64,000 bases of DNA, taken from assembly GCA_947044365.1 (NCBI GenBank), contig OX345639.1:4755944-4819943 (forward strand), in the 5' to 3' direction. The position numbers were made by a program, and so were the translations under genes. The stretch is from Petrosia ficiformis (lineage: Eukaryota; Porifera; Demospongiae; Haplosclerida; Petrosiidae). The notes under the pieces are model-generated. The model ran no database searches. It had not been told where the DNA came from and saw only the letters and a list, made by a program, of their open reading frames with translations. Below, piece by piece: positions 3,834-60,900 of this stretch (the stretch's first letter is position 1; every line of letters starts with the position of its first letter).

Positions 3834-5288
3834 TTAATCAATATGGTTTGTAATAGTGGATTCCCTGTGAGACTGGTTCCGGTACCTGCCTGGACCCACT
3901 CCAGTTCCCAACACAGCATCATCATAGTTACGGCCAACCTTTTTTTGAATTATCAAAGATCTGTTTTTACCAGTACCATGTGATTTATGTTGCAAGTGGT
4001 ATTGCTCTGAGAGTAAGTGAATGAGTTTACGATCTTCAGAACTCAGATCGGATGAAAACTCTAATTGAGTATCATCAGACATGAGAAACTCTTGCAACTT
4101 GGTTCGAATATTTTGCGAAAAGATGCCCGAATGACCCTTGGACCCAAATCCACCTCTTGTTCCTTCTTCATTAACGTATGCAACTACCGGTTCCTTTCGG
4201 CCTTGTCCTCCAACCCCTAAACCTTCTTTACTACTCCATCCCATTTTACGTAACATCTGATGACCTTTATTGTCTTCGGATATTTTCGGTACTTTCTGCA
4301 TTGATTCCGATAGTTCTTTTAATTCTACAACTTTTCTTCCTAATGAAGGACACAGGATTGGATGATTCTGTTGATATTCATTCACCTCTTGTATTATAGA
4401 ATGGGCAGCATCTCTTTTAGCTTCCTTCTTTTGAGAGCCATTTCCACGCGATGTTAATGTTCCATCAATGAAGACTTTGCATACAAATTGATTCGGAGTC
4501 GACTCGGAATCAAAGTCATATACTATTGTATGTGCTATACGACTACATAGTACATGTAAAGAACAGAGTGGATTCGAATTACCACCATAACATTTCTCAC
4601 ACATACACAAACCTCCTAATTGTTGGATTATTCTAATCCTTCTGGGATTTTGGATAAAATCATGTACATTAGAATTATTGGTATTAGTTTGGGAATGTAG
4701 TTGAGAGGAGGGACTTGATCCCGGTTGATTCGGGACACTGTCTTGGTCTTGTTTCTTGCGGATTGTTGATATCAGAGCATCAAGATGGTGTGTGAGATCT
4801 TCAAATGGGATAGAGTCACATGACTCTTGGCTTGTATCACTACTACCTTGATCATGTGACCTAGATGCATCAGTAATGGATTTTTCAATTTTTTGAATCT
4901 TTGCTGGAATTTCAATTGTGTCGGAGGAACCTAGCGTGCGTTTCATTGTTATCTTGACTTCCTCTTTCTCCTCTTCCCTGATGTCTTTATGAACGTCAAG
5001 CCATCGATCTAATTCGCTCTGGTCTGGTACAGGATAATAAGAGACACGATCTTCTAATTTATCAGAATACTTACAGCCCATGAAGTTAATGTTACTCCAC
5101 ACCATAGACAGACATATCACTCTCTCTGGTGTATACATGTTTCTGTGATCTTCTATGAATTTTCTACGACATAGCCAGTGGTAGCGAGACTCCCAAGCAG
5201 CTTGTTTCAAGCCTGGAAGATCAGCTGCAAAACTTACAAAAGTAGGAGTGTTTATATAAGTGCTTGTTGGCATTGGGTTGGTAGCCAT
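3834..5288 (-). CDS. NKRF: NKRF-like protein: XRN2-binding (XTBD), dsRBD, G-patch and R3H domains
   Basis: Uninterrupted frame of 484 codons from the chosen ATG at 5288 (MATNPMPTS). Residues about 30-90 form an XTBD domain (AWESRYHWLCRRKFIEDH then an ERVICLSMVWSNINFMGCKY segment), the XRN2-binding fold of NKRF, CDKN2AIP and CDKN2AIPNL. Then come a low-complexity linker, a dsRBD-like stretch ending KKEAKRDAAHSI, a G-patch (LRKMGWSSKEGLGVGGQGR) and a C-terminal R3H-like region. This order matches NKRF, a nucleolar factor that works with XRN2 in pre-rRNA processing and represses NF-kB targets in mammals. The frame stays open to an ATG at 5411, but that extension would overlap the start of the opposite-strand gene, so 5288 is preferred. 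Single exon, head-to-head with the NEPRO-like gene and tail-to-tail with ZFYVE26. Confidence 0.85.
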   Translation of the reverse strand: MATNPMPTSTYINTPTFVSFAADLPGLKQAAWESRYHWLCRRKFIEDHRNMYTPERVICLSMVWSNINFMGCKYSDKLEDRVSYYPVPDQSELDRWLDVHKDIREEEKEEVKITMKRTLGSSDTIEIPAKIQKIEKSITDASRSHDQGSSDTSQESCDSIPFEDLTHHLDALISTIRKKQDQDSVPNQPGSSPSSQLHSQTNTNNSNVHDFIQNPRRIRIIQQLGGLCMCEKCYGGNSNPLCSLHVLCSRIAHTIVYDFDSESTPNQFVCKVFIDGTLTSRGNGSQKKEAKRDAAHSIIQEVNEYQQNHPILCPSLGRKVVELKELSESMQKVPKISEDNKGHQMLRKMGWSSKEGLGVGGQGRKEPVVAYVNEEGTRGGFGSKGHSGIFSQNIRTKLQEFLMSDDTQLEFSSDLSSEDRKLIHLLSEQYHLQHKSHGTGKNRSLIIQKKVGRNYDDAVLGTGVGPGRYRNQSHRESTITNHID

Positions 5289-5356
5289 GTTTTTCCAGCA
5301 GCAAGTGTGGGCCTGGTTTATAGGTGGAGCATGCATACAAACCCACGTGGAACAAC
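5289..5356. promoter_or_regulatory. Probable bidirectional promoter, NKRF-like / NEPRO-like
   Basis: Only 68 bp separate the two chosen start codons. The palindromic E-box CCACGTGG lies at 5343-5350. Transcription start sites are not visible, so promoter function is inference from the divergent layout. Confidence 0.5.
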
Positions 5357-7964
5357 ATGGATAAAACTCTGTTGGATTGGGTTGGTCGTTTGTCTCTCCA
5401 CCATCCAGCAAAGGAACTTCCTATCTTTTCAAAATGGTTACATAGATTTAAAAATGCCCACAGAAGAGAGAAGTGTTTTCAGAAACTTGTGAGGGTGAGT
5501 TTACTGAAGATTACAGAAGATTACTGCACTATGCAACATTGTACATTAGATTGAGAATGATTTCAAGCATTACTATCAATTAAGAATATTTATGTATATA
5601 AATACAACAGTGAAGCAACTTACACAGTAAGACACATCTACACATATAAGATACTGATTATTTTATTGATTTCATCAGATTGTGGGATGCATCTAAAGTG
5701 TTACTTCTATCTGAAAAATTATTGGGATATGTTATGTTCAATGGACGATATCTTGAGTTCATGGAATCTACATTCTAGTAAGCTAACAAAGAGTATTATC
5801 TATGTTGGAAATGAGGCAAATTATTTTGCTTTTATAGAGTGGAATTTTGAGCTTGTATATATGTATGGAGGAAAAATCAGAAAAAATAATAGTTTTATGG
5901 AAATGTTTACTTATAAATGCTCACTATTCGAAACATTTTGTTTACTAAACTAGATATCTAGGTAAAGCAACAGCTACACTTACTGTATAAAACGGCTAAT
6001 TAACGAGTGTTGCATGTAAGCCACGACAAAATAATTAGAGTATATATGGTACTACACTAGGCATACTACACTAGGCATACTGGCAGTATATAGACTATGG
6101 TTTCGTATTATAGTATAGTTCATATGAAACATGAGGTAAAGCATTTGATCAAAATTATTCTGACTGATTTGCTAACATGTACATTCAACTTTCACAAATA
6201 TAAATAGTAACAAAACCACAACCCATCCACTATTTATAGTAACAAAACCACAACCCATCCACTATTTATAGTAACAAAACAGCATACAACCATTAACAAG
6301 TTGACTGCCTAGGTAACGATACCCACGTACATGTAATTACATGTACTAGCTAGTAGTATTAAATGAACCTAGGATAATTGTGCAGGTAAATGTGTGTGCG
6401 TCTTTCCCTGCCTCCCTCCCTCCCTCACTCACTTCCTCCTTTCCTTATCACTCCCTTCTCCATCTTTACTCTTTCCGATTTTCTCACATTTATCTGTTTG
6501 TCATACTCGGGAAAACAATGTTTTATTGTCCTTACAGTGATCTCATTCAGAAGATGGAAATTGGACATTTAATACCAATGTATATAGTCATCACAGCTTC
6601 ATTAAGTAGATTATGGTGAGATGAGGAGTTGTACACATTATAACTACATATTAATACATTTATAAATAGGTATTACATGAGAATTCATTTGTGGGCTCTT
6701 GTAGAAACTTATCGACATTTAACAGCACAAGTACCCAACAATGAGGAACTAATGCAGAAACTGTTACATAATATTGACATGAAGTATCACAAATACTTTC
6801 CAGTGAATATGAGAGAACTTTCAAACAAAGAATATAAGTTAGCAGGATGAAAATTTTAATCAAATGCCTGCAATTGAATGATTGCTATTGAGCCTTATTT
6901 ATTCATACAGTGAGGACAATTCTCTTGTACTTAATTCAAATTCTGAAGTTTATCATTTAAAAGGTGAGTTTGTTAAATGATAGGACCATGTGTACTGCAG
7001 TGTTAGGGTAGTTCAATTGTATACAATATATTGATCAAATGCTCACATTTAGACTTTCGCTATATGACCATTTTGCAACTAAAATGGGTTATCGAGGTGG
7101 ACTGGGTAGTCTCACATAGGTGAGGTCAACCCACTATACTAGCGTTCATCAAGAGTATGGTTTTACATCCCCTCAGAAGGATGTAGTAACAAACACCTCC
7201 TCATTGAGGGTGAAGCTGAGTATACTCATGGGTGAAAAAAGCCTGCACCTTAGTGGGGCTTGAACCTGCAACATTTCGATTGCAGGCCAGCACTTTAACC
7301 AACAGGCCACTAGTACACCCTGATTATGAAGTACCCAACAATGGGCTAATATAATAAACATTTGATTAGTCCATACTTACATATACTTGTTGTTAGACAC
7401 AGATCAGAAACTAATTAATCAAAGGCTGATGGATTTTAAAAAACCACCAATATTGTTTTTAAAACCTATACCACCACAGGTAAGTACCTGTTGAACAGAT
7501 TATAATGAATTTATTATTAATACTACTAGCATAGAATAGAGAAGAGTACTAAAAGGAGACATTTTCAATATTATCCAAATGTTCTTAAAATTATAACAAG
7601 TAGAGCCGGCAGGAAAAGTGTATTTTCAATTCGAAGTAGACGTGTACTGAAAGGATTAAAAAGATTGTATACTATTGGATTACAACCATTTCACTTCAAG
7701 ATTATTAGTACAAGAAAAGGTTTTGGAGGTTGCCTTGTCAAACATGTCAGAGTTAGATTAAGATATATGCCTGTATACAGGATGCAGAGACAGTCAGTTC
7801 TGAGGACATGCAGGAATCAGAGAGCAAGCAGACAAAATGTTGACCCTCAGCATCAGTGGCTATTTGTGAAAAGAAAGAATGACATATCACCTGATAATCA
7901 CATGATTAATTCTAATTGTCATACAGCACCAAGTATAGATGATATTTTTAATATTATATTGTAG
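5357..7964 (+). CDS. NEPRO: NEPRO-like (nucleolus and neural progenitor protein) gene
   Basis: Exons: 5357-5494, about 5680-5777, 6538-6615, 6670-6837, 6911-6963, 7397-7479 and 7530-7964. From the second exon on, phases close. The first junction does not (exon 1 ends in phase 0, exon 2 needs one carried-over base pair more), so a small exon or another acceptor was missed between 5495 and 5680. An upstream in-frame ATG exists at 5324. Family-like features: a basic FKNAHRREKCFQKLVR segment, LWDASK, a hydrophobic GHLIPMYIVITASLSRLW segment, and an Arg/Lys-rich C-terminal exon ending SIDDIF before the stop. NEPRO is a nucleolar protein linked to RNase MRP and rRNA processing, which fits the adjacent NKRF. 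The recall of the family is moderate, so the symbol is tentative. Confidence 0.6.
6183..6278. repeat. Tandem unit with TAGTAACAAAACCACAACCC
   Basis: Three copies of a roughly 35-bp unit (TAGTAACAAAACCACAACCC followed by ATCCACTATTTA) in a NEPRO-like intron. The same unit appears in reverse near 52275-52325 and in degenerate form near 39400-39440, so it is a dispersed family. Confidence 0.75.
7095..7330 (-). mobile_element. tRNA-derived SINE, copy 1
   Basis: On the minus strand a tRNA-like head starts near 7320: A-box-like TAGTGGCCTGTTGG, then B-box GGTTCAAGCCC about 40 nt on, followed by an unrelated tail with TGAGTATACTCAGCTTCACC. A second copy with the same head and tail lies at 17190-17365. 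The shared tail, beyond the tRNA-like part, marks a SINE rather than a tRNA gene. It sits in the NEPRO-like intron 6964-7396. Confidence 0.78.
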
Positions 7965-22862: not shown

Positions 22863-25800
22863 ATGTCTCTTCCATTACCTTCTGAGGAGTTATGCTTTAA
22901 TCCTAACGTCTTTCAGTCAGAAGAGTTCAGTGTAGATGAATTTGTCAGTCAATGCAAAAGGCGGGTAACCACAGAACATCTCCATGACGACCTCCAATCA
23001 TATTATGTCACTCTCAAAGCAGCTATGGTAGAACTAATTAACAAGGACTATGCAGACTTTTTAGATCTATCAGCTAATCTTGTGAGAAATTAGATATATA
23101 ATTAACCTCCAATCCTATACTCATTAGATAGATTTTAATAAGCAGGAATAGACTGGTCTACCTAGCATGCATACAGTCTTAATTAATCATACATACAAGA
23201 AATACTTAATTAAATATGCATAAAATTATATAACAAAAACAAGAAAATACACGTATTAATCAGACCTAATTAAGGTTCAATTACAATTATAATTAACGGT
23301 TAATTATAATTATAATTGTAATTGAGTTTATTTGTCAGATCATATCACATGATCTGACCACCACATATTTCTATAGCCATTCCTGCATCCGGGAGAGAGA
23401 AGAGGATCTTCACCATTAGTGACAAAAGCTTTAGGCAAGAATGTTGCTCTTAACATAGATTAGAGAATTTGAAATATTTCAAGAGCTCCCTCACTCCTAA
23501 TGCATACATAACTGTTATGTAATAATAATTATTATTATTACGTAATACGTATGAATAATCTGTAAATAACACTTTATATTATTTTCTTAGGTTGGTATGG
23601 ATAAGCAGATTGAAGGCCTGTCCTCACCTCTTAGTCAACTTCATCAAGAGATAATGGTATGTATATTTTAATGATTATATATCTGTATATTAATTGATCG
23701 CAATTACATCTATATATTAACTGATCTTCATTTCTTAGGCCATTAAATATTCAATGGAGAAAGTATTGCACTCACTGGAAAATAAAATGGCTGCCCGAAA
23801 AGCATTGAGGGAGAAAAAAGTGGGTGTGGTTAATACAATTAATTGAGAATTATGCAAATATTTTAATGGTGAAAAACCAATTAGTATAGCAAATGTTACT
23901 ACAGGTATATATATACACAATACGTCAACAATGATGAGTAAAGCCCAATGGCCATCACCAGGGTTTTTGGGGGGGGAGATCCTTTTCCTAATTTCAACAT
24001 CTCAGCTACAAGCCTTCTGGGGCCCCATAAGCCACCAGAAGCAACCTTTGCACGATTTCTTTCTCCTCCCTAACAAAAAAATCCTGTATTATTGAATGGG
24101 GCCAAATGTTATAATATTTTGTTATTCTCTATACTGCAGAATATTAAAGAGATTACATCATTCCCTATCATACATTTTTAGGTAAAACTACAAAAGCTAA
24201 TGGTTGTCATGGATACCACAGATTTACTTGAGAAACTATTAGATATTAGAGGAGGGAAAGCTGGAAGAGTAATGCAGGGAGGGGAACTTGATCGTGTTGC
24301 CATGGAGTTTAATAAGCTTCGTCATAATGCATCTTCCATAGCTGATCATTCACTAGTCAAGACTTTAACACCGGTAAGTATCTATAATCATCTCCATAAA
24401 TTATGTTTGAGTTTTGTGATATCAGAATGATGTCATGTGATATTACAGATAATGTCATGTGATTGTGGGATCATTTTGGCTGCATTGGAGGAATTTCTCT
24501 ATTAAATATTAATACATGTATGTTATGGATCTGTTTCAAACTCTCAATCCTTTTTTTAGCGTATGGTAGCCATAACTGAATGTTTCCAGAAAATATTAGA
24601 AAAAATGCTGACACAGGCTTTGAATGATAAGAACCATGAGCTTCTACTGCATGCATTAGAGACTTATGTCTTGATTTGTAGACAAGATGCAGCTGAAGAA
24701 TTGTTTCGTAATTATATTGTTCTCCCCAATATGAATGAGGTTTGTATGAGTTAATATTTGAATGGATGGATGGATGGATGGATGGATGGATGGATGGATG
24801 GATGGATGGATGGATGGATGGATGGATGGATGGATGGATGGATGGATGGATGGATGGATGGATGGATGGATGGATGGATGGATGGATGGATGGATGGATG
24901 GATGGATGGATGGATGGATGGATGGATGGATGGATGGATGGATGGATGGATGGATGGATGGATGGATGGATGGATGGATGGATGGATGGATGGATGGATG
25001 GATGGATGGATGGATGGATGGATGGATGGATGGATGGATGGATGGATGGATGGATGGATGGATGGATGGATGGATGGATGGATGGATGGATGGATGGATG
25101 GATGGATGGATGGATGGATGGATGGATGGATGGATGGATGGATGGATGGATGGATGGATGGATGGATGGATGGATGGATGGATGGATGGATGGATGGATG
25201 GATGGATGGATGGATGGATGGATGGATGGATGGATGGATGGATGGATGGATGGATTGACGGATAGATGGACGACAGATGGCCAGATGGATGAAGGATGGA
25301 AGGCTTAAATAAATGGGGAGATTCCGTAGGAATCCCATATCAAAGTGTGAGTGTGTGTAATATCACCATAGTAATTCATTGCTATTGTGATATGTGTGTA
25401 ATCATTATCTCATTTACTTATAAATTATATATTCTCAGATAATATCAACTAAAACTATTCTCACACAATCTGAAGGACTCGTTGGAATGTACTCAGCAAT
25501 TCTTAAATTCATACCAAAATATTGTGGATTTATACTTGAAGTCAGTGAAGGGGTGCAAGGTACAGATGAGTTTGACTTCTTGGTAAATTCAGTTTGGCCA
25601 GAGGTGGTGACTGCCATTGAGACTCGGGCATCTGTAATATTCGCACCAGGGAATCCCGATACATTTTATAAAGTAAATAAAATTATAATATATAGTTGTA
25701 AGAATAATAAAAAAAACATTTAAAAAAAAATGAAAGAGCATGAAGGGATATGAAAACTGAAAAAGCACACAAACAAGATGGGTATAGTATCTTAGCAACA

Positions 25801-32040: not shown

Positions 32041-32315
32041 CATGCTACCATGGCAACCGTTTGATGTGGTTAGGTCTTATATTTTTGTATATAGACCTGT
32101 GAATCTTTAATCTATCAGCATACAATATATTGTATATAGTACACTTACAGTTCTTATATAAAACAATATAAAACCTTGGTTTAGTGTCCTCGGATGTGAT
32201 ATAGCCCTCGCAGGCTCGGGCTATATCACATCCTTGGACACTAAACCTCGGGTCTATATTTTTGTATATAAGACCTGTAAGTGTACTATATATATTACAT
32301 ATATAATTGTATTGA

Positions 32316-32356
<41 letters not shown>

Positions 32357-35300
32357 CTAGCTAATGACTAACTATTGAGTCAAAGCCAAAGTTTTATGGC
32401 TTTGCTGAGCTCATTGAAGTTGCAGAAATGTTGTTAATTTGTAGCATAATGATATGGATATCATAATCAAAATTTTCTTTATTGAATGAAAAAGATTTGT
32501 AAAAATTACAATGAATTTTTGATATAATAAAATCGAGATTTTGCTGAATAAAAAATGATATATAATTATAGTTAAGTTAATTGTAATACAAGTGATCAAA
32601 GAGGAAGCATATATATATACCAAGTGATTCCTTGTCCTCGTTGTCCAGTTTATAAAGAGGTTAGGCACATGCTACAGATACTATTTCTTGTCTCCATTCC
32701 CAGTTCTTCTTGCTTGTCACTGGATTACAACCTGTACTGTATAGCACTGGAATCGGATAGAATATTTGTTTGCAGTTATGAGGGCTAAAAGTTACATCCC
32801 ACCAATATGTGTTTGTACAGTTTGCTTGAAATACGTATGCAGGGAATCTGTTTGGGTTATAGTCGCATGAATATTCCCAAGGACAAGCCTGGTCATGTTG
32901 CTGTTCATGTTTATTGTAGGGAATATTGCTGCATACATGCTCTGGTTGAAGGTGATGATATTGATTATTACTGAGGAAATGTTTGAAAGACCAATGAGAT
33001 TTTCGTACTGCATCTGGCAATGATATGTTCACTCCGATATGTAGAAATGGTTGCTTTAGAATTTGTTTGTTGTAAATATGAAGAAACCACTGCAACGAAT
33101 AGTCTTCACATTCTTCAGTTGTGTTCTGTACTTCAAGCGATTGTTCATCTCCACTCTCCCCAGACACAAAAGTAAAAAATGCCATTTGCACAAAGACAAC
33201 TGCAAGCAACTGTATTAGTAATTTATTTAGACTCATCATCACAAGCTTGTAGTAAGAATTATATTATTTTTATTATTTGCTCAAGGCTCAGATGTTCTGC
33301 AGTTTGCAGTTTTTCCTTTTTATATCTGCACATTCAAAAGACTTTAATTGTAAACAAATAATACACAAAGTTTACACATTAGCAGTTAAGTAATAAATAA
33401 TTATACCTATAATTATATTCAGTGTGAGGTAATCGTTTTCAGTTTAATTTATAACTTATAATTTTAACTACTATCATAGTAGAGTTTCCTCCTTGTTACA
33501 CTTTCTGTATGGAGTGATTGGTTCTTCCTTTTTTGAAGGGAGGGAATATCTATTGTAGGATATCAAAAAGGAATATCCTTATCTGCAGATGTGGTTACTG
33601 ACTCAGTTTTGGGACCTACTTATAATGAAAAGAACTGGTGAAGTTGGCTCTGGTTATTGAGCAATGTTGATGTCTAGAGATTATCTATGATGATAGCTTA
33701 ACTCGTGATATTTCCCAATAAATATATTTGTGTACTTAAATTAAATGGTTTACTTTGTAGTAGTATATTTATTGCTGGTACAATGGTTGGGTATGGCTTT
33801 CAGACTCATTTCTGATGCAAACTTGATGTTTTCCTATATCAATTGTGAATTGACCTTGCAAATAAACAAGAAGAGGCTGCTTCAACATCTGGTATTGTGA
33901 TACATAAATATAAATTATAATTTTATATAATTATGTATAATTATTCATATGATTATTGTGAATTTTCAACAATTTGAAAGATGTGTTGCCGTGTATGTGT
34001 ATTGATTGTAGGAGTGGAATTAATGTCTTGCATATGCTTACATAGTTGCAGATGTATAATTATAATCATTTTGATTATTGGTATGAGTATAATTGTTATT
34101 TCTTGTTTTATATTTTTGTGGTGAAGTTTATGACAAAGGATGTCTGTAGGAAGGCCAAAAGGAGTTGAGTGGGCTTACTCATTAGATATACACCTGTAAT
34201 TGTATGATGCTGCATCTATATACAGCTTATATACATGCTATGTGTACATGTATTTTCTCCAGTAGAATTGATCAGATTTTTAGAGCTATTGTTGAAGTTA
34301 TAATTAACAGTGAAAAATAAGAAAACATGTAATTATAAAATGATGCTTGCTTGATGGATGTACATTGTGGTCAGACACAATACTACGTCTAGAATATAAT
34401 ACTATAATATTGTGTATATCTTTGCTGCAAGGGTAGTAAATAATAGGTATATGTATTCCTTATGAGCAGCAATCTAGGCATAGAGCTGTTACGGGTGTGG
34501 TATAGTTTTACACGCAACTAAAGCATATCAGATTCCTGTGTGAAGCTGAAAATACTATAATAATATACTATTATCTTGTGTATTTACTGTTGCTGCGTGT
34601 TGCATAGTTGCAGCTGTATTACATAATTATAAAAATTTTGAAAGCAGAGTGCTAGTCCATTGTGTAAACCAAACACCTTTATACTTAATGTGACTAGATC
34701 CTAGGGGAATATCAGTATGGCTGTATGAAAAATCTAATTCAAAAAATAATTAAAAATTTTATAATGTAAGAAATAAAATCGGTGTAAAAAAAAAGTCGAG
34801 CAAAATAATTTGGTTTAATGTACAATTAACCAGTTATTACATGTATTATAATTATGATTAATTGGTGATACTCGTTCTAGCCAGTCACAGTTCACACTTC
34901 ACATTTCACACATACAATCTGTTATGAGCCATTCTCTTGATTCGATCCACTTTCCAGATGCATCATTGTTGGCACGGTCGTTGAATATTAGTTTGTAACT
35001 AGGTGTTTGCTGATATATGAGAATTGGTACTCGCACATCATGTTTAATACATCTCTTGATGTCAGGGTAGTTACAGTAAGAATTAGCACATTCTTCACCA
35101 TTGACCATTATAGCTGGAAATCTGAGAGGGTCAAAAGTGCAGTGCAATGAGAAATCACAGCCTCCTTCATCAGTTTTTGCTAGTGATCCATTCCATGCTG
35201 ATTTCACTATATCCTCACAATACTCGACACCCTCAGCTTTAGTGAGCTCCGCAGGATCATGGTAAATCATTCCGTACAGTAAGTTACCTAGTGAGGTCCT

Positions 35301-37767
35301 GTTCAAACCTATTACTATATTTGTGTACTTTTCAGTTCTGTATAATTTGCTGTCCATTAGTTGTTGGTATGGTGTTTGGGAGAGAACATCATCGCCAGAC
35401 GTCAACCCATCAGAGACAGTTGAAGTGATGACGGTTGCCACATATTCAAACGGTTTACACATCGCAGGTCTCGAGATAAAAATGGCGCACAGTGCAAGAT
35501 ATATGTAGCGAACCATCTTTTTTAAAGTAGTTTTTTTTTTCGTCCTAACAATAAAGCAGTGAGCAATGATCAGTAAAGTGAATAATCTCGTGGACAAGAG
35601 CTATTTTATGCAATAATATTGAAAATGAAAGCTGTTTAGCCAAGGGTGGAGCAATTGCAATATAATGTAACATTTTGGAATTTTTTAAGCTTCCTCCTAT
35701 TCTCTACAGATGCCAAATATTTTCAACAATATTATCCTTTCCAAAACTAGACAGTTCACAACACAGCAAGGTATAATACAGATAATTATAATTTAAATGT
35801 GTCGAGGATGTTGCATCATTCCATAGTTTCACTGCAACAAACATGTGGATGTCTTGTAGTTCTGTTACCAAAGATTAGTGATTGTGCAACTGATGTCCTC
35901 TCAAACCAGTCAATTAAGAACTTAGACCCAGTTTACACCATACCTCGTCTTTACAGACGAACAAATAGGGAGGTAAGTTATTAAAAATAGGGAAAAGTTA
36001 TTATAATGTAAGGGACTATCGACATGCACCAACTTGTTTTTGATGTTCATACGAAACCCACAATGACAATGAAACAGAACGATGGATAAGTTATATTAAC
36101 TCCATCCCTAAACCAAAGGGTGTGTTCCCCTATGGTTTGGCAATCATGTCTAGCTTATGTCAGTATTATAGCAAGTCAGTGGCTCTTATTACTACTGACT
36201 ATTGGTGTTGATAGACACATGCACTACCTTAATAAAGTTATTTTAAATTATATATTATCAGGAGCTTATGAACAGCACTCATAAGTTATGTATATGCACT
36301 TCTATTCATTCTGTCTGGGGATTTTAACAGTACAACTACAATGTATACTCTGTTTTAACAATACACAATTTGTATAATTATTGAATTAGATGTGTAATTT
36401 TTAGATTCCTAGCAAAGCATCAAGTTATGTAACAATCATTCTAAAACCCCTATGTCAAATGAGTGAAGAGCTGGAAGGTGAACAAGGACTAAAATGGAAA
36501 AGAAGAGTAATTGACATTGTGACAGAGAGGTCAGTTATATGGCTGTAGTTTTCTTGCTAGGCATAAAAGATTTCTAAGTACTATGGTCAATTCCTACCAA
36601 CATTATGGAGTTGCTAATTTAGCTAATGTTATAATTTTCATAGATTTTGCTAATTTTTGTACATGCAAACAACAATTACAATATCAGTATTTGCTGGTCT
36701 TTCAAATAGTACAGTGAACCCATTTTCAAGAGAGGAATGACCATCATTTTAATAGTCCTGCTCAGTGTGGCTTAACTTGAGTAGTAAACTGAATGACTAG
36801 ACCACTCAGTCAATCCCTACAATATCATAATACTAATCAATGACCATCATTTTAATAGTCCTGTGGCTTAATTTCACTGATGGCCAGATAACTCAGCTTG
36901 GAAGTGAAGGGTGTGGCTACGCTAAACTAATAACTCAGTCATTACTAACCCATTATTTTTTACTAATTTTTTAGATATCATGATATGACATCAGAAGTAC
37001 TGAGTAATGTTAAAAGAACAGAAGATAGTCTTCTAAAATTGAAGAGAAGTCGCCGATCACTAATACCTGAAACCAGAAGTGGAATGAGTGATGATAATAA
37101 AATAAGACTACAAATAGCTTTGGATATTGAGTACTATATTCAAGAGGTATGAAGAGATGAGTGTGTTTAGTGGGTTTATATTTAAGAGATGAGAGTCGGT
37201 TTATTTTCGAGAGATATGAAGAGATGATAGTGTTTATATTCAAGAGGTATGAAGAGATGATAGTGTTTATATTCAAGAGGTATGAAGAGATGAGAGTGTT
37301 TATATTCAATAGGTATAAAGAGATGGTATATAGTGTTTATATTCAAGAGGTATGAAGAGATGAGAGTTTATATTCAAGAGGTATAAAGAGATGAGAGTGG
37401 GTTTATACTCGAGAGATATGAAGAGATAAGAGTGTTTATATTCAAGAGGTATAAAGAGATGAGAGTGTTTATATTCAATAGAAATGAGAGTGGGTTCATA
37501 CTCAAGAGTTATGAAGAGATCCAAGCAGATTTATATTCAAGTAAATCATAAAATACCGTCAGCCAGGGTGAACGTATTTATAGGCAAATGAGATCCACAG
37601 TACAGAGTATCACTAAGATCAAAACTTTTAGTGTATATCCACTATTATTTTTTTAATAGGTTAACAAGATTCTTACATCAGAATATACATCATCTTCTTT
37701 AACAAAACTCCTGGAAATGGCTGCTCTAGCGAAATCAACAGCTTTAACATCTACAGATACTAATTAA
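22863..37767 (+). CDS. COG2: COG2, conserved oligomeric Golgi complex subunit 2
   Basis: Sixteen exons: 22863-23081, 23591-23656, 23739-23819, 24182-24373, 24560-24739, 25439-25672, 27550-27689, 27736-27791, 28092-28216, 28269-28319, 31204-31263, 35710-35770, 35807-35972, 36405-36529, 36975-37146 and 37660-37767; about 678 residues (human 738). Strong landmarks: [20 protein letters not shown] in exon 1, [57 protein letters not shown], and [21 protein letters not shown]2 is a coiled-coil lobe-A subunit of the Golgi tethering complex for retrograde vesicles. All junctions close except 35770/35807, which is off by one base; one of these two boundaries is misplaced or a tiny exon is missing. The 31264-35709 intron holds two antisense genes. 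Confidence 0.94.
24757..25255. repeat. About 500 bp almost perfect (GGAT)n array in COG2 intron
   Basis: Roughly 125 uninterrupted tetranucleotide units with slight decay at the right end. Reads as Trp-Met-Asp-Gly or Ile-His-Pro-Ser in either strand; none is coding, as COG2 exons end at 24739 and resume at 25439. Confidence 0.97.
25803..25901. mobile_element. Small inverted-repeat element in COG2 intron
   Basis: Arms CTAACCACTTCCATATAACA and TGTTATGTGGAAGATGTTAG face each other across about 50 bp. MITE-like fold-back; superfamily unknown. Confidence 0.6.
26035..26160. repeat. TAACTAAAACTAAAACCC-type repeat
   Basis: AT-rich sequence with repeated AACTAAAA and TTAGTTAACTAAAC, related to 17510-17722 and 57005-57250. 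The rest of the intron 25673-27549 up to 26977 shows nothing recognisable. Confidence 0.6.
26978..27490. repeat. (TATG)n microsatellite in COG2 intron
   Basis: Long imperfect TATG array ending about 60 bp before the acceptor at 27548-27549. Cys-Met-Tyr-Val reading frames in it are artefacts. Confidence 0.95.
27800..28030. repeat. (TATG)n microsatellite in next COG2 intron
   Basis: Same repeat type fills the intron 27792-28091. Confidence 0.93.
28549..28764. mobile_element. Probable hAT-like MITE in COG2 intron
   Basis: Left end CAGTGTTTTTGACAAGTT; right end AACTTATCAAAAACTCTA, an imperfect inverted repeat. Flanks do not show a clean duplication. Just to the right, 28800-28950 is related (reverse orientation) to 23940-24060 in an earlier COG2 intron. 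Confidence 0.5.
29640..30066. repeat. (CATA)n microsatellite with a duplicated segment
   Basis: CATA array in which a unique segment with GATGCATAGTTGCATACATA and CAGGAATGCATACATTC occurs twice, starting near 29704 and 29940, about 237 bp apart. This is a recent segmental duplication inside the array. Elsewhere in the 28320-31203 intron nothing coding was seen. Confidence 0.9.
30804..30978. mobile_element. Inverted-repeat element, ends TAAGAGGTTTC
   Basis: Arms TAAGAGGTTTCCTGATGTGC (30804) and GCACATCATGAAACCTCTTA (ending 30978) are inverted copies with one mismatch. No coding. A MITE of uncertain family in the COG2 intron. Confidence 0.7.
31975..32340. mobile_element. Nested fold-back element, copy A of hairpin family
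   Basis: Outer arms TCACTCAATACAATTATATA and TATAATTGTATTGAGTGATA enclose AT runs and an inner hairpin at about 32139-32287 whose arms carry TTTAGTGTCCTCGGATGTGA and TCACATCCTTGGACACTAAA. The core TGTCCTCGGATGTGATATAG recurs in copies B (45560-45850) and C (51915-52205). In the COG2 intron, next to the IL-17-like genes. Confidence 0.82.
32661..33242 (-). CDS. IL-17-like secreted cystine-rich protein A, nested in COG2 intron
   Basis: Uninterrupted 193-codon frame on the strand opposite to COG2. The N-terminus (about residues 1-28, [19 protein letters not shown]) is a good signal peptide. The C-terminal half resembles the IL-17 cytokine core: [15 protein letters not shown] at 120-134, like the family's W-x-Y...D-P-N-R-x-P motif, then Cys142, Cys157, [10 protein letters not shown] (Cys172) and a last strand [11 protein letters not shown] ending at Cys192. 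There are eight Cys after the signal peptide (45, 104, 120, 126, 142, 157, 172, 192) and N-glycosylation sites NTT, NIS and NCT. The classical C-x-C ending is reduced to one Cys. No other family was recalled that fits better; a divergent cystine-knot protein remains possible. Expression is unknown. Confidence 0.68.
   Translation of the reverse strand: MMMSLNKLLIQLLAVVFVQMAFFTFVSGESGDEQSLEVQNTTEECEDYSLQWFLHIYNKQILKQPFLHIGVNISLPDAVRKSHWSFKHFLSNNQYHHLQPEHVCSNIPYNKHEQQHDQACPWEYSCDYNPNRFPAYVFQANCTNTYWWDVTFSPHNCKQIFYPIPVLYSTGCNPVTSKKNWEWRQEIVSVACA
34899..35516 (-). CDS. IL-17-like secreted cystine-rich protein B, nested in COG2 intron
   Basis: Single-exon frame, 205 residues from the chosen ATG at 35516, which starts a signal peptide ([20 protein letters not shown]); an in-frame ATG at 35597 gives a less signal-like N-terminus. 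The core parallels protein [16 protein letters not shown] (residues about 120-134), then Cys at ECANSYC, KRC, a VRVPILIYQ strand, and an ending [10 protein letters not shown] that keeps the C-x-C of IL-17 proteins. The pattern D-P-x-R-F-P followed by C...C and the terminal V/I-x-x-C-x-C are IL-17 hallmarks. It lies about 1.7 kb from protein A, on the same strand, in the same COG2 intron, and its 5' end is about 190 bp from COG2 exon 35710-35770. Overall identity to A is low, so the duplication would be old. Confidence 0.66.
   Translation of the reverse strand: MVRYIYLALCAIFISRPAMCKPFEYVATVITSTVSDGLTSGDDVLSQTPYQQLMDSKLYRTEKYTNIVIGLNRTSLGNLLYGMIYHDPAELTKAEGVEYCEDIVKSAWNGSLAKTDEGGCDFSLHCTFDPLRFPAIMVNGEECANSYCNYPDIKRCIKHDVRVPILIYQQTPSYKLIFNDRANNDASGKWIESREWLITDCMCEM
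37129..37530. repeat. Minisatellite made of the COG2 exon-15 splice donor
   Basis: The exon end and donor (ATATTCAAGAG|GTATGAAGAG, boundary 37146/37147) is repeated downstream about every 33-45 bp, with the exact string CAAGAGGTAT again near 37231, 37274, 37343, 37374 and 37443. The intron therefore carries at least five decoy donors. Confidence 0.88.
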
Positions 37768-57999: not shown

Positions 58000-60900
58000 T
58001 CAAATTGAGTCCTTCAAACTTTCATTAGTAACATAGAGATTATTTTCTGTGGATCTACTGAGCTCATCATATTCTACTCCATACCAATTTGCATAGGATT
58101 TATCGTTCTCAACTTTCTGCTGTTTTCTTTTTGGACTTTCATAGTTAGTTTCACAACCAGGCATAGCATTTTTATCTTGTTTCTTTTCAAAAGCATCACC
58201 AGGTGTGGAGTATTCCTTCAGTGAATCATTTTCCAAGAAGTAACTTTTTTTCAGGTGCATTTGGTGTTTTGCGGGCACTAGTGACTCATAACTGGTTGGT
58301 ATTTTCTTTGTACCGTTATGTAATTGCTCATAACCATTCTGGTTACTTGGACTGTTCAGAGATTCTTTGTGTGTTTGCAAAACACCATCAATGGGAACAT
58401 CATAATCATCTTTTTTGCTTCTACGAAAACTCTCTCCCACTTGGACGTTGACAAAAGGTTTCTCTCCGGCTGCTACAGCTCCATCAATTGGGGTCTCGTA
58501 CAAGGTACTATATTCTTCAATTGAACGACCTTTCACAACCTCATAGCTACCACTATGCGATATGCATGCTTTATTCTTCATAGACTTAGCAGTTTTGTAT
58601 GTGTGTTCATCAGATATTGATATATAGAAAACACTGTTAGAATCTATTCCATAACATGGATTGTCTAAGTCTTGGAGAGCCTGTATATTTAGGTCCTTTG
58701 TAGTGGAATAGATATGACTATTTGTAGTTCCTAATAAGTTTGAAAAGGTATAAAAAATACATTGTTTACTGTGTATATACTTCAGTTTAATTCAGTAACG
58801 TGACATTATGCTTGTTGTATACTTCAGTTTATCTCGGTATACTTAAACTATATACTTAACTACGATATTAATGGAAAATGCTATAAAGTATTGAGTGCTA
58901 ATTGAGTACTGGACTGCACAATGAAACATGCACCAAAATTTTATTTATTTTTGATCAACCATCCAAGTGGCATCAACTAATATGCAAAAGGGTTGTGATA
59001 GTATTGATTGACTCTGGAGCAGTATTCAACAACAGTAATTGAAGTACTAATATCAAACGATCGAGTATCTTGGCATCAGTATTGCCCATATGTCTCTTTG
59101 CATGATTATAGTCAGAGTTTAATTGGATTAAGAGTACATACATACCTGGCAATATAGTAGATTTAACAAGGATTCTTCTTTTAGTTATTTTTATAATTAC
59201 CACTATTGTGATAAAAATTATCAACACAGCCAAAAGTGTACCAACAATACCACCAATAATGGCACCCACTTCATCTTTGTTTGCACCACCTGGATAAAAC
59301 AGAAGTGATGTATGACTTCACTAATCTGTGTGTGTGTGTGTGTCTGTGTGTTTGTAGCATACACACATACCTTTTTTATCATTCATTGTTGACTCAATAT
59401 TTCCACTACTTGAGCTAGAAGTGGTAGATACAACCACGATTTCATTATTGCTTGCTGATGACATGGTAGTTCCTGATGACATGGCAGTTCCTGATGACAT
59501 GGTAGCTTCTGATGTTATAGTAACACCAGATAAGGTTGTACCAGTAACAATGCTACTAACAATCGTACTAGTGCTAGACTGCATAACACTGATAGGGGAC
59601 TGTATTGGCCTGCTAATAGTAGTAGTAGTAGTACTGGTTGAAGATTGAATGATACTTGTTGGAGATAGTATAACACTTGTACCATATGTAGCACTACTGG
59701 ATTGTGGTTGTATAATCCTATTAATACTGGTTACATATGTTGTGGGTATGTTTATAGTGCTAGTTGTTGGATTTAAACACTGAATGTCACCTATGGCACA
59801 AACACAATTAGTACCGGGATCTTCAAAACCAGGGAGACACTCAATACTACCTGTAAATTGATTACAGCTATAATGTCCATTAGAGTCATCATGAGGAATA
59901 CACAATATGTCACAGTCTGGACCATAGTAATTAGACTCCTGACACACAAGTTTGTAGCTAAGGATTATGGCAGCAACTCCAAAATCACCTTGGTACATTT
60001 GAACATTTTCTGCACTTCCAATTTGTGAAGGAACTTCAACAAATATTTTATCCATCAGATCAATAATATTTGATGTAAAATCGTCATCAAAAGCACTAAG
60101 ATCATCATCCTCTATCTTAATGTATAACTGAATACCAACCTATAATATACGTAATAATAATTATATATATAGATAAAAAATTAATTATTATATATATATA
60201 ATTGTTTATTTACAAATGATCATTTCTTTCCCGTATTGTGTGTATACATGTTCAGTAATTACATTATATATGCATATAATTATGTGTGTTACCTGTGGGA
60301 TGCTGCTCAGATCAAACACTACTGGATTAGGCAGTGTTCCTATTGTATTATCGAATGTAATATTGTCACCTCCTGCCACTCCAGATGTCACAATGAAATC
60401 TGGCCAAGAACACACATCATTGGCATGGTCAGTTCTTCCATCACGTAAACACAGAGTGAACATAGTTTCACAAGGTACATAACAGCTAAAAATTCCCTGG
60501 TCACAACAAGTCTGCGTCTCATCCCAGTGGTTGGGATTGGTATAGTTTAGGAATTTGAACTCCAGTCTATATTTCTGGGCACAAGTTTTCTGCAAAGATA
60601 TATATACAATTAGATGGATACAAACATATAAATTATACATAATTATTATAATATAATATATATTATACATAATAGTATATTACACGTGACTTCCAACTAT
60701 TGCGTTATATACCTCCTATAATGCATAACTGCAGTAATCTATACAACTACTATTGATGATAGCACTTACTGTACATATCCAAACATATAATATTATATAA
60801 TTATAATTATATATAATTATAATAATATAATTATTATACATAATAATATATTACATGTGACTTCCAACTATTGCATTATGTACCTCCTATAATAACTAGT

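Follow-up and report, generated by a model that had tools for sequence, protein, structure and literature searches.

The window analysed here, a stretch of 64,000 nucleotides, lies within a 9.94 Mb contig that represents chromosome 4 of the Petrosia ficiformis assembly odPetFici3.1. P. ficiformis belongs to the demosponge order Haplosclerida. An earlier note proposed two reading frames in this window, hereafter called A and B, as IL-17-like cytokine candidates, and checks of the ATG and stop coordinates place both frames at the positions given there. The two frames are carried on the same strand with approximately 1.7 kb between them, and the features assigned to them are as follows.

32661..33236, minus strand: frame A, an IL-17 family protein, probably secreted (single exon, 191 amino acids, from the ATG at 33236 to a stop codon that ends at 32661)
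34899..35516, minus strand: frame B, a probable divergent IL-17-like protein (single exon, 205 amino acids, from the ATG at 35516 to a stop codon that ends at 34899)
33159..33236, minus strand: putative signal peptide of A (approximately residues 1-26, from hydropathy, boundary set by eye)
35457..35516, minus strand: putative signal peptide of B (approximately residues 1-20, from hydropathy, boundary set by eye)
32667..32888, minus strand: IL-17 domain of A (residues 117-190, from Pfam and alignment with IL-17F)
34908..35159, minus strand: IL-17-like region of B that is rich in cysteines and spans C120 to C203 (from alignment of the A, P0003 and B domains)
33317..33323, minus strand: TATAAAA, a possible core promoter element upstream of the ATG of A, read from the sequence
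32478..32483, minus strand: AATAAA, a possible polyadenylation signal downstream of A
34814..34819, minus strand: ATTAAA, a possible polyadenylation signal downstream of B

The putative signal peptides correspond to hydrophobic N-termini (best 12-residue Kyte-Doolittle mean within the first 46 residues of 2.6 for A and 2.2 for B). No later transmembrane-like stretch is evident in either protein, with best 19-residue hydropathy means of 0.84 for A and 0.95 for B.

Several other elements were noted in the window. Exons of a Notch ligand with MNNL and DSL domains lie at 59321-60670 on the minus strand, and a frame of 525 amino acids at 3834-5411, also on the minus strand, encodes XTBD, double-stranded RNA-binding, G-patch and R3H domains and is presumably NKRF-like. 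A long tandem repeat at 24742-25338 translates as (WMDG)n in one orientation and as (IHPS)n in the opposite orientation. An inverted repeat located by eye at approximately 32180-32290, beside an AT-rich microsatellite a short way downstream of A, is perhaps a small mobile element. The Notch-ligand exons and the XTBD-containing gene, together with the size of the chromosome 4 contig, make it very unlikely that A and B derive from a contaminant. Scans for a possible horizontal or viral origin of A, run with two short peptide patterns each and not exhaustive, matched 21 stretches in prokaryote genomes and 13 in a viral collection, and in neither set was a relative of A confirmed.

The earlier note had described a cysteine followed by an R-F-P motif as common to A and B, and this feature is present in both proteins as C-x5-C-x-[YF]-x3-R-F-P. 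When 598 stop-to-stop frames from the window and from loci L011-L013, each 50 amino acids or longer, were screened, only A and B contained the C-x5-C-x-[YF]-x3 motif with R-[FY]-P. The motif is followed by four cysteines in A and five in B, in agreement with the four to five that had been described, and the proteins end in C-A and C-M-C-E-M, respectively, as the description of a final strand closing on C or C-x-C had implied. The further claim that the cysteine spacing is typical of IL-17 proteins holds for B but is only partly borne out for A. Alignment predicts that B has cysteines at all six expected knot positions (C120, C143, C148, C156, C201 and C203), including a C-x4-C pair (C143/C148) and a terminal C-x-C pair (C201/C203). 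A, in contrast, carries the first cysteine only of each pair, and thus is without the third and sixth knot cysteines.

Despite these missing cysteines, the assignment of A to the IL-17 family that had been put forward from its cysteine pattern is upheld by profile comparison. The Pfam IL17 profile (PF06083) matches A with 34.9 bits (cut-off 24, E 2.1e-8). When the sequences of the Protein Data Bank (PDB) were searched with A as a single sequence, three IL-17F sequences ranked highest (E ~0.003); next came a protein of no relation to IL-17 (E 0.14) and then IL-17A (E 7). An 11-member profile of the A family likewise found IL-17F as its best match (E 1.9e-4), and all 25 distinct PDB sequences that it matched at E <=10 are named IL-17A, IL-17F or IL-25. 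Ten database relatives of A were recovered at E <=1 from 21 candidates, are 36-96% identical in alignment, and carry PF06083 as a precomputed domain without exception. Rescanning at E <=10 placed Pfam IL17 on each of the 11 members of the A alignment. NCBIfam gave no useful match for A, B, P0003 or P0004, the last two being ligand candidates encoded elsewhere in the genome.

A resembles vertebrate IL-17F and IL-17A in matching the IL17 profile and in being short and probably secreted, and its alignment with IL-17F reveals P-W-x-Y, D/N-P-N-R-[FY]-P and Q-A-x-C in common. The two proteins differ in that the third and sixth knot cysteines are absent from A. Eight cysteines (C43, C102, C118, C124, C140, C155, C170 and C190) are invariant among the 11 aligned members of the A family, which also all retain the R-F-P and D-Y-N-P motifs; the terminal C-x-C is present in five of the 11. 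At the position of C118, PDB IL-17F has a serine. In IL-17F, this serine and another stand in for the threading bond of the knot. On the usual pairing of knot cysteines, A may close the threading bond that is missing in IL-17F while being without the III-VI bond, since it has no third cysteine and no terminal C-x-C. C124 and C170, both invariant in the family, may pair to form an extra bond.

The proposal that B is also of IL-17 type fared less well in its original form. Neither Pfam nor NCBIfam assigns B to a family, and a Pfam scan at E <=10 yielded nothing, including IL17 and Noggin; what remains is a weaker but statistically clear similarity to A. Because the Pfam profile does not match it, we do not file B as an IL-17 member. 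PDB sequences were matched neither by B alone nor by a five-member profile of its family. The database search at E <=1 retrieved only three relatives of B, with identities of 72-100% and one sequence the same as B, and no Pfam domain is annotated in any of them. A paralogue of B, P0004, resides on chromosome 3 (G000:C3:5344660-5345226) and is 78% identical to B; this protein and the B relative P0017 are likewise without a Pfam match at E <=1. Comparison of B with the chromosome 3 paralogue gives dN 0.128 and dS 0.396 (NG86), and the resulting ratio below 1 indicates selection on the protein.

The failure of B, P0004 and P0017 to match Pfam profiles, the failure of B to match PDB sequences and the narrow set of B relatives are what would be expected if A were a true IL-17 ligand and B an unrelated secreted, cysteine-rich protein of the sponge lineage, whose motif is convergent and whose adjacency to A is coincidental. 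Direct comparison of profiles with hhalign also leaves room for this explanation, as the B family aligns with the A family plus P0003 at a probability of only 50.6% (E 1.6e-4, one pair) and with P0003 alone at 25.2% (E 7.6e-4). Nevertheless, a model built from the A family and P0003 scores B at 18.5 bits (best single stretch 16.3) and the B paralogue at 15.5 bits, and B lies above every scored shuffle in two sets. The best score was 11.9 bits among shuffles of the mature part of B (4,741 scored of 5,000) and 11.8 bits among shuffles in which the cysteines were held in place (4,758 scored of 5,000). Moreover, among the 598 frames B ranks second for the A-family model, at 17.4 bits with the third frame at 10.7, and A ranks second for the B model, at 10.1 bits with the third frame at 4.1. 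The two genes also lie close together on one strand, and have in common the motif and, to a large extent, the order of the cysteines. These findings suggest that B is probably a divergent relative of A and of IL-17, and we consider an unrelated origin of B unlikely.

To place A and B among the ligand genes of the whole genome, 191,215,263 bases on 29 contigs were searched by profile. PF06083 gave two matches over the cut-off among three candidates scored. One is A and the other is a frame on chromosome 1:

G000:C1:12455305-12456147 (L001 829-1779): P0003, 281-316 amino acids, with a hydrophobic N-terminus

P0003 and A retrieve each other (E 3.2e-9 and 1.5e-8), and alignment predicts that P0003, like B, has cysteines at all six knot positions. 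With A, B and the B paralogue, the genome thus holds at least four candidate ligand genes. P0003 exceeds the cut-offs of two Pfam families, scoring 34.1 bits for IL17 and 25.6 bits for Noggin (cut-off 24.1), and P0015, its database copy, carries both domains as precomputed matches. It is also the sole match in the genome to Noggin (PF05806), for which one candidate was scored. The boundary between the IL-17 and Noggin families is therefore soft.

The double match of P0003 and P0015 raises the question of whether the sponge proteins form a noggin-like group, namely secreted antagonists of BMP or TGF-beta whose likeness to IL-17 would stem from the cystine knot that both possess. However, P0003 itself scores higher for IL17 than for Noggin. 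A has no Noggin match in Pfam, none of the 11 members of its alignment has one at E <=10, and B has none. PDB sequence searches with A, with the A profile and with P0003 all returned IL-17 at the top, with no noggin listed, and the same genome contains SEFIR genes (see below). We therefore regard a noggin-like identity as improbable.

Cystine-knot families resemble one another, and this likeness could also bring a ligand of the Trunk, Spaetzle or neurotrophin type, whose receptors would be kinases or Toll-like receptors instead of SEFIR proteins, close to the IL-17 profile. The account given in PMC13105070, citing Chen 2024, in which the IL-17 pathway arose from domain shuffling of two older pathways, is compatible with such a relationship. 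The Trunk, Spaetzle and neurotrophin families are, however, absent from the Pfam matches of A, B and P0003, and membership in one of these groups seems more remote still than a noggin-like identity.

In established IL-17 signalling, the ligands are secreted as cystine-knot dimers. They bind to receptors with a SEFIR domain, and these in turn recruit the SEFIR adaptor CIKS/Act1 and, through it, engage TRAF6 and NF-kappaB. The earlier note had called for a search for SEFIR genes in the same genome, and such genes are indeed present: of the four candidates scored with PF08357, three exceed the cut-off. A single exon on chromosome 3 carries a SEFIR domain (26.2 bits, cut-off 23) downstream of a long hydrophobic segment, judged by eye to be membrane-spanning. 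Two upstream exons are predicted to join this exon, with GT-AG ends and matching phase, and would supply a presumed extracellular part in which a C-x3-C cluster precedes the membrane; SEFIR scores 24.8 bits on the joined model. No FnIII match was found in the joined exons, and no profile recognises the presumed extracellular part. The IL-17 receptor ectodomain profile PF16578 found nothing over its cut-off in the genome, with one sub-threshold match at another site that contains two stops, and the ectodomain profile PF16556 found no match in the genome. Fourteen of 14 control genomes were silent in the IL17, SEFIR, Noggin, PF16578 and PF16556 searches.

On chromosome 17 (L013 5555-7538), an exon encoding SEFIR is predicted to join, in phase and with GT-AG ends, to one that encodes Death. 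Both domains of the joined model exceed their cut-offs (SEFIR 44.3 bits, Death 30.1 bits), which makes it a candidate for a CIKS/MyD88-like adaptor in this sponge. It resembles a placozoan protein, compared to CIKS adaptors and MyD88 in PMC6321704, in which SEFIR likewise occurs together with a death domain. The sponge model has SEFIR first and Death second on two exons joined by prediction, and its comparison with the placozoan protein concerns domain content only.

Further SEFIR or SEFIR-like sequences were also observed. Two near-identical frames of 376 residues with a membrane-spanning stretch are located on chromosome 3 (L019 and L020 1099-2229; G000:C3, about 1.274 and 1.255 Mb), and their SEFIR scores of 17.6 and 19.0 bits lie below the cut-off of 23. 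As these frames are near-identical and ~20 kb apart, they probably arose by recent duplication. On chromosome 14, a SEFIR exon lies near a caspase-like exon (L012 1295-3702; caspase 18.1 bits, cut-off 21.4), and the two possibly form one adaptor gene. The presence of SEFIR alone is no proof of IL-17 signalling, because two out of three ctenophores have the domain according to PMC11797021, as do placozoans according to PMC6321704.

From these components we propose a signalling route in which the ligand, receptor and adaptor steps each have a candidate in the sponge genome. A and B would be secreted from the cell and would bind, probably in dimeric form, a receptor that crosses the membrane once and has a cytoplasmic SEFIR tail. 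This tail would recruit the SEFIR-Death adaptor through SEFIR-SEFIR contact, and the adaptor would drive an NF-kappaB-type epithelial response to microbes. The fold, dimerisation, orthology, receptor binding, expression and function of the sponge proteins, including any role in immunity or in symbiont control, are predictions from sequence. We consider it likely that A is a secreted ligand of the IL-17 family and B a divergent member of the same cystine-rich ligand group, with action through a SEFIR receptor and adaptor as the likeliest mechanism.

The sponge Amphimedon, examined in two published surveys of IL-17, belongs to the same order as Petrosia. PMC4517768 (2015) reports no IL-17 in Amphimedon or in the two cnidarians considered there, and proposes a nematode origin. 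In PMC8353272 (Saco 2021), Amphimedon is again reported to be without IL-17 and Cnidaria is the earliest phylum, and PMC13105070, following Chen 2024, places the origin of IL-17 in ancient eumetazoans. A Pfam IL17 entry for Amphimedon queenslandica (A0A1X7VXB1, residues 359-442) is nonetheless referred to in PMC8353272, whose authors could not locate it in the genome. This entry resembles A in being a sponge sequence filed under Pfam IL17, and differs in that its coordinates imply a protein of at least 442 amino acids compared with 191 for A; it is known here only through the remark in PMC8353272. Where excerpts of other sponge papers refer to 'IL-17 signalling' (PMC8242945, PMC9335075 and PMC7882143), the term is a KEGG pathway label, and no ligand is named in those passages. 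Among the publications listed in literature searches, none announces a sponge IL-17 ligand in its title or in the opening of its abstract, which does not establish absence from print. The IL-17 family and a sponge Pfam entry are thus already known, and what is added here is a chromosome-anchored set of ligands together with receptor and adaptor candidates.

An IL-17 gene on a sponge chromosome, accompanied by SEFIR receptor and adaptor candidates, would contradict the published dating of this family to a time after the divergence of sponges if orthology holds. Only if the sponge and eumetazoan IL-17 proteins are orthologous does an origin at the base of animals follow. A broader reading, which we hold tentatively and with somewhat less than even confidence, is that sponges possess a complete IL-17 axis that predates their split from other animals, and that a single cystine-knot ancestor gave rise to both IL-17 and the noggin-type antagonists. 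The first part of this reading follows from the axis that sponges would have, consisting of a ligand, a transmembrane SEFIR receptor and a SEFIR-Death adaptor. The second part is suggested by the retention of six knot cysteines in P0003 and B, and by the match of P0003 to both profiles. P. ficiformis is rich in symbionts, with 112 binned bacterial genomes given in its genome paper (PMC12648040). If the proposal is true, it would become testable whether a mucosal cytokine began as a signal between epithelium and microbes in animals that have neither lymphocytes nor a gut.
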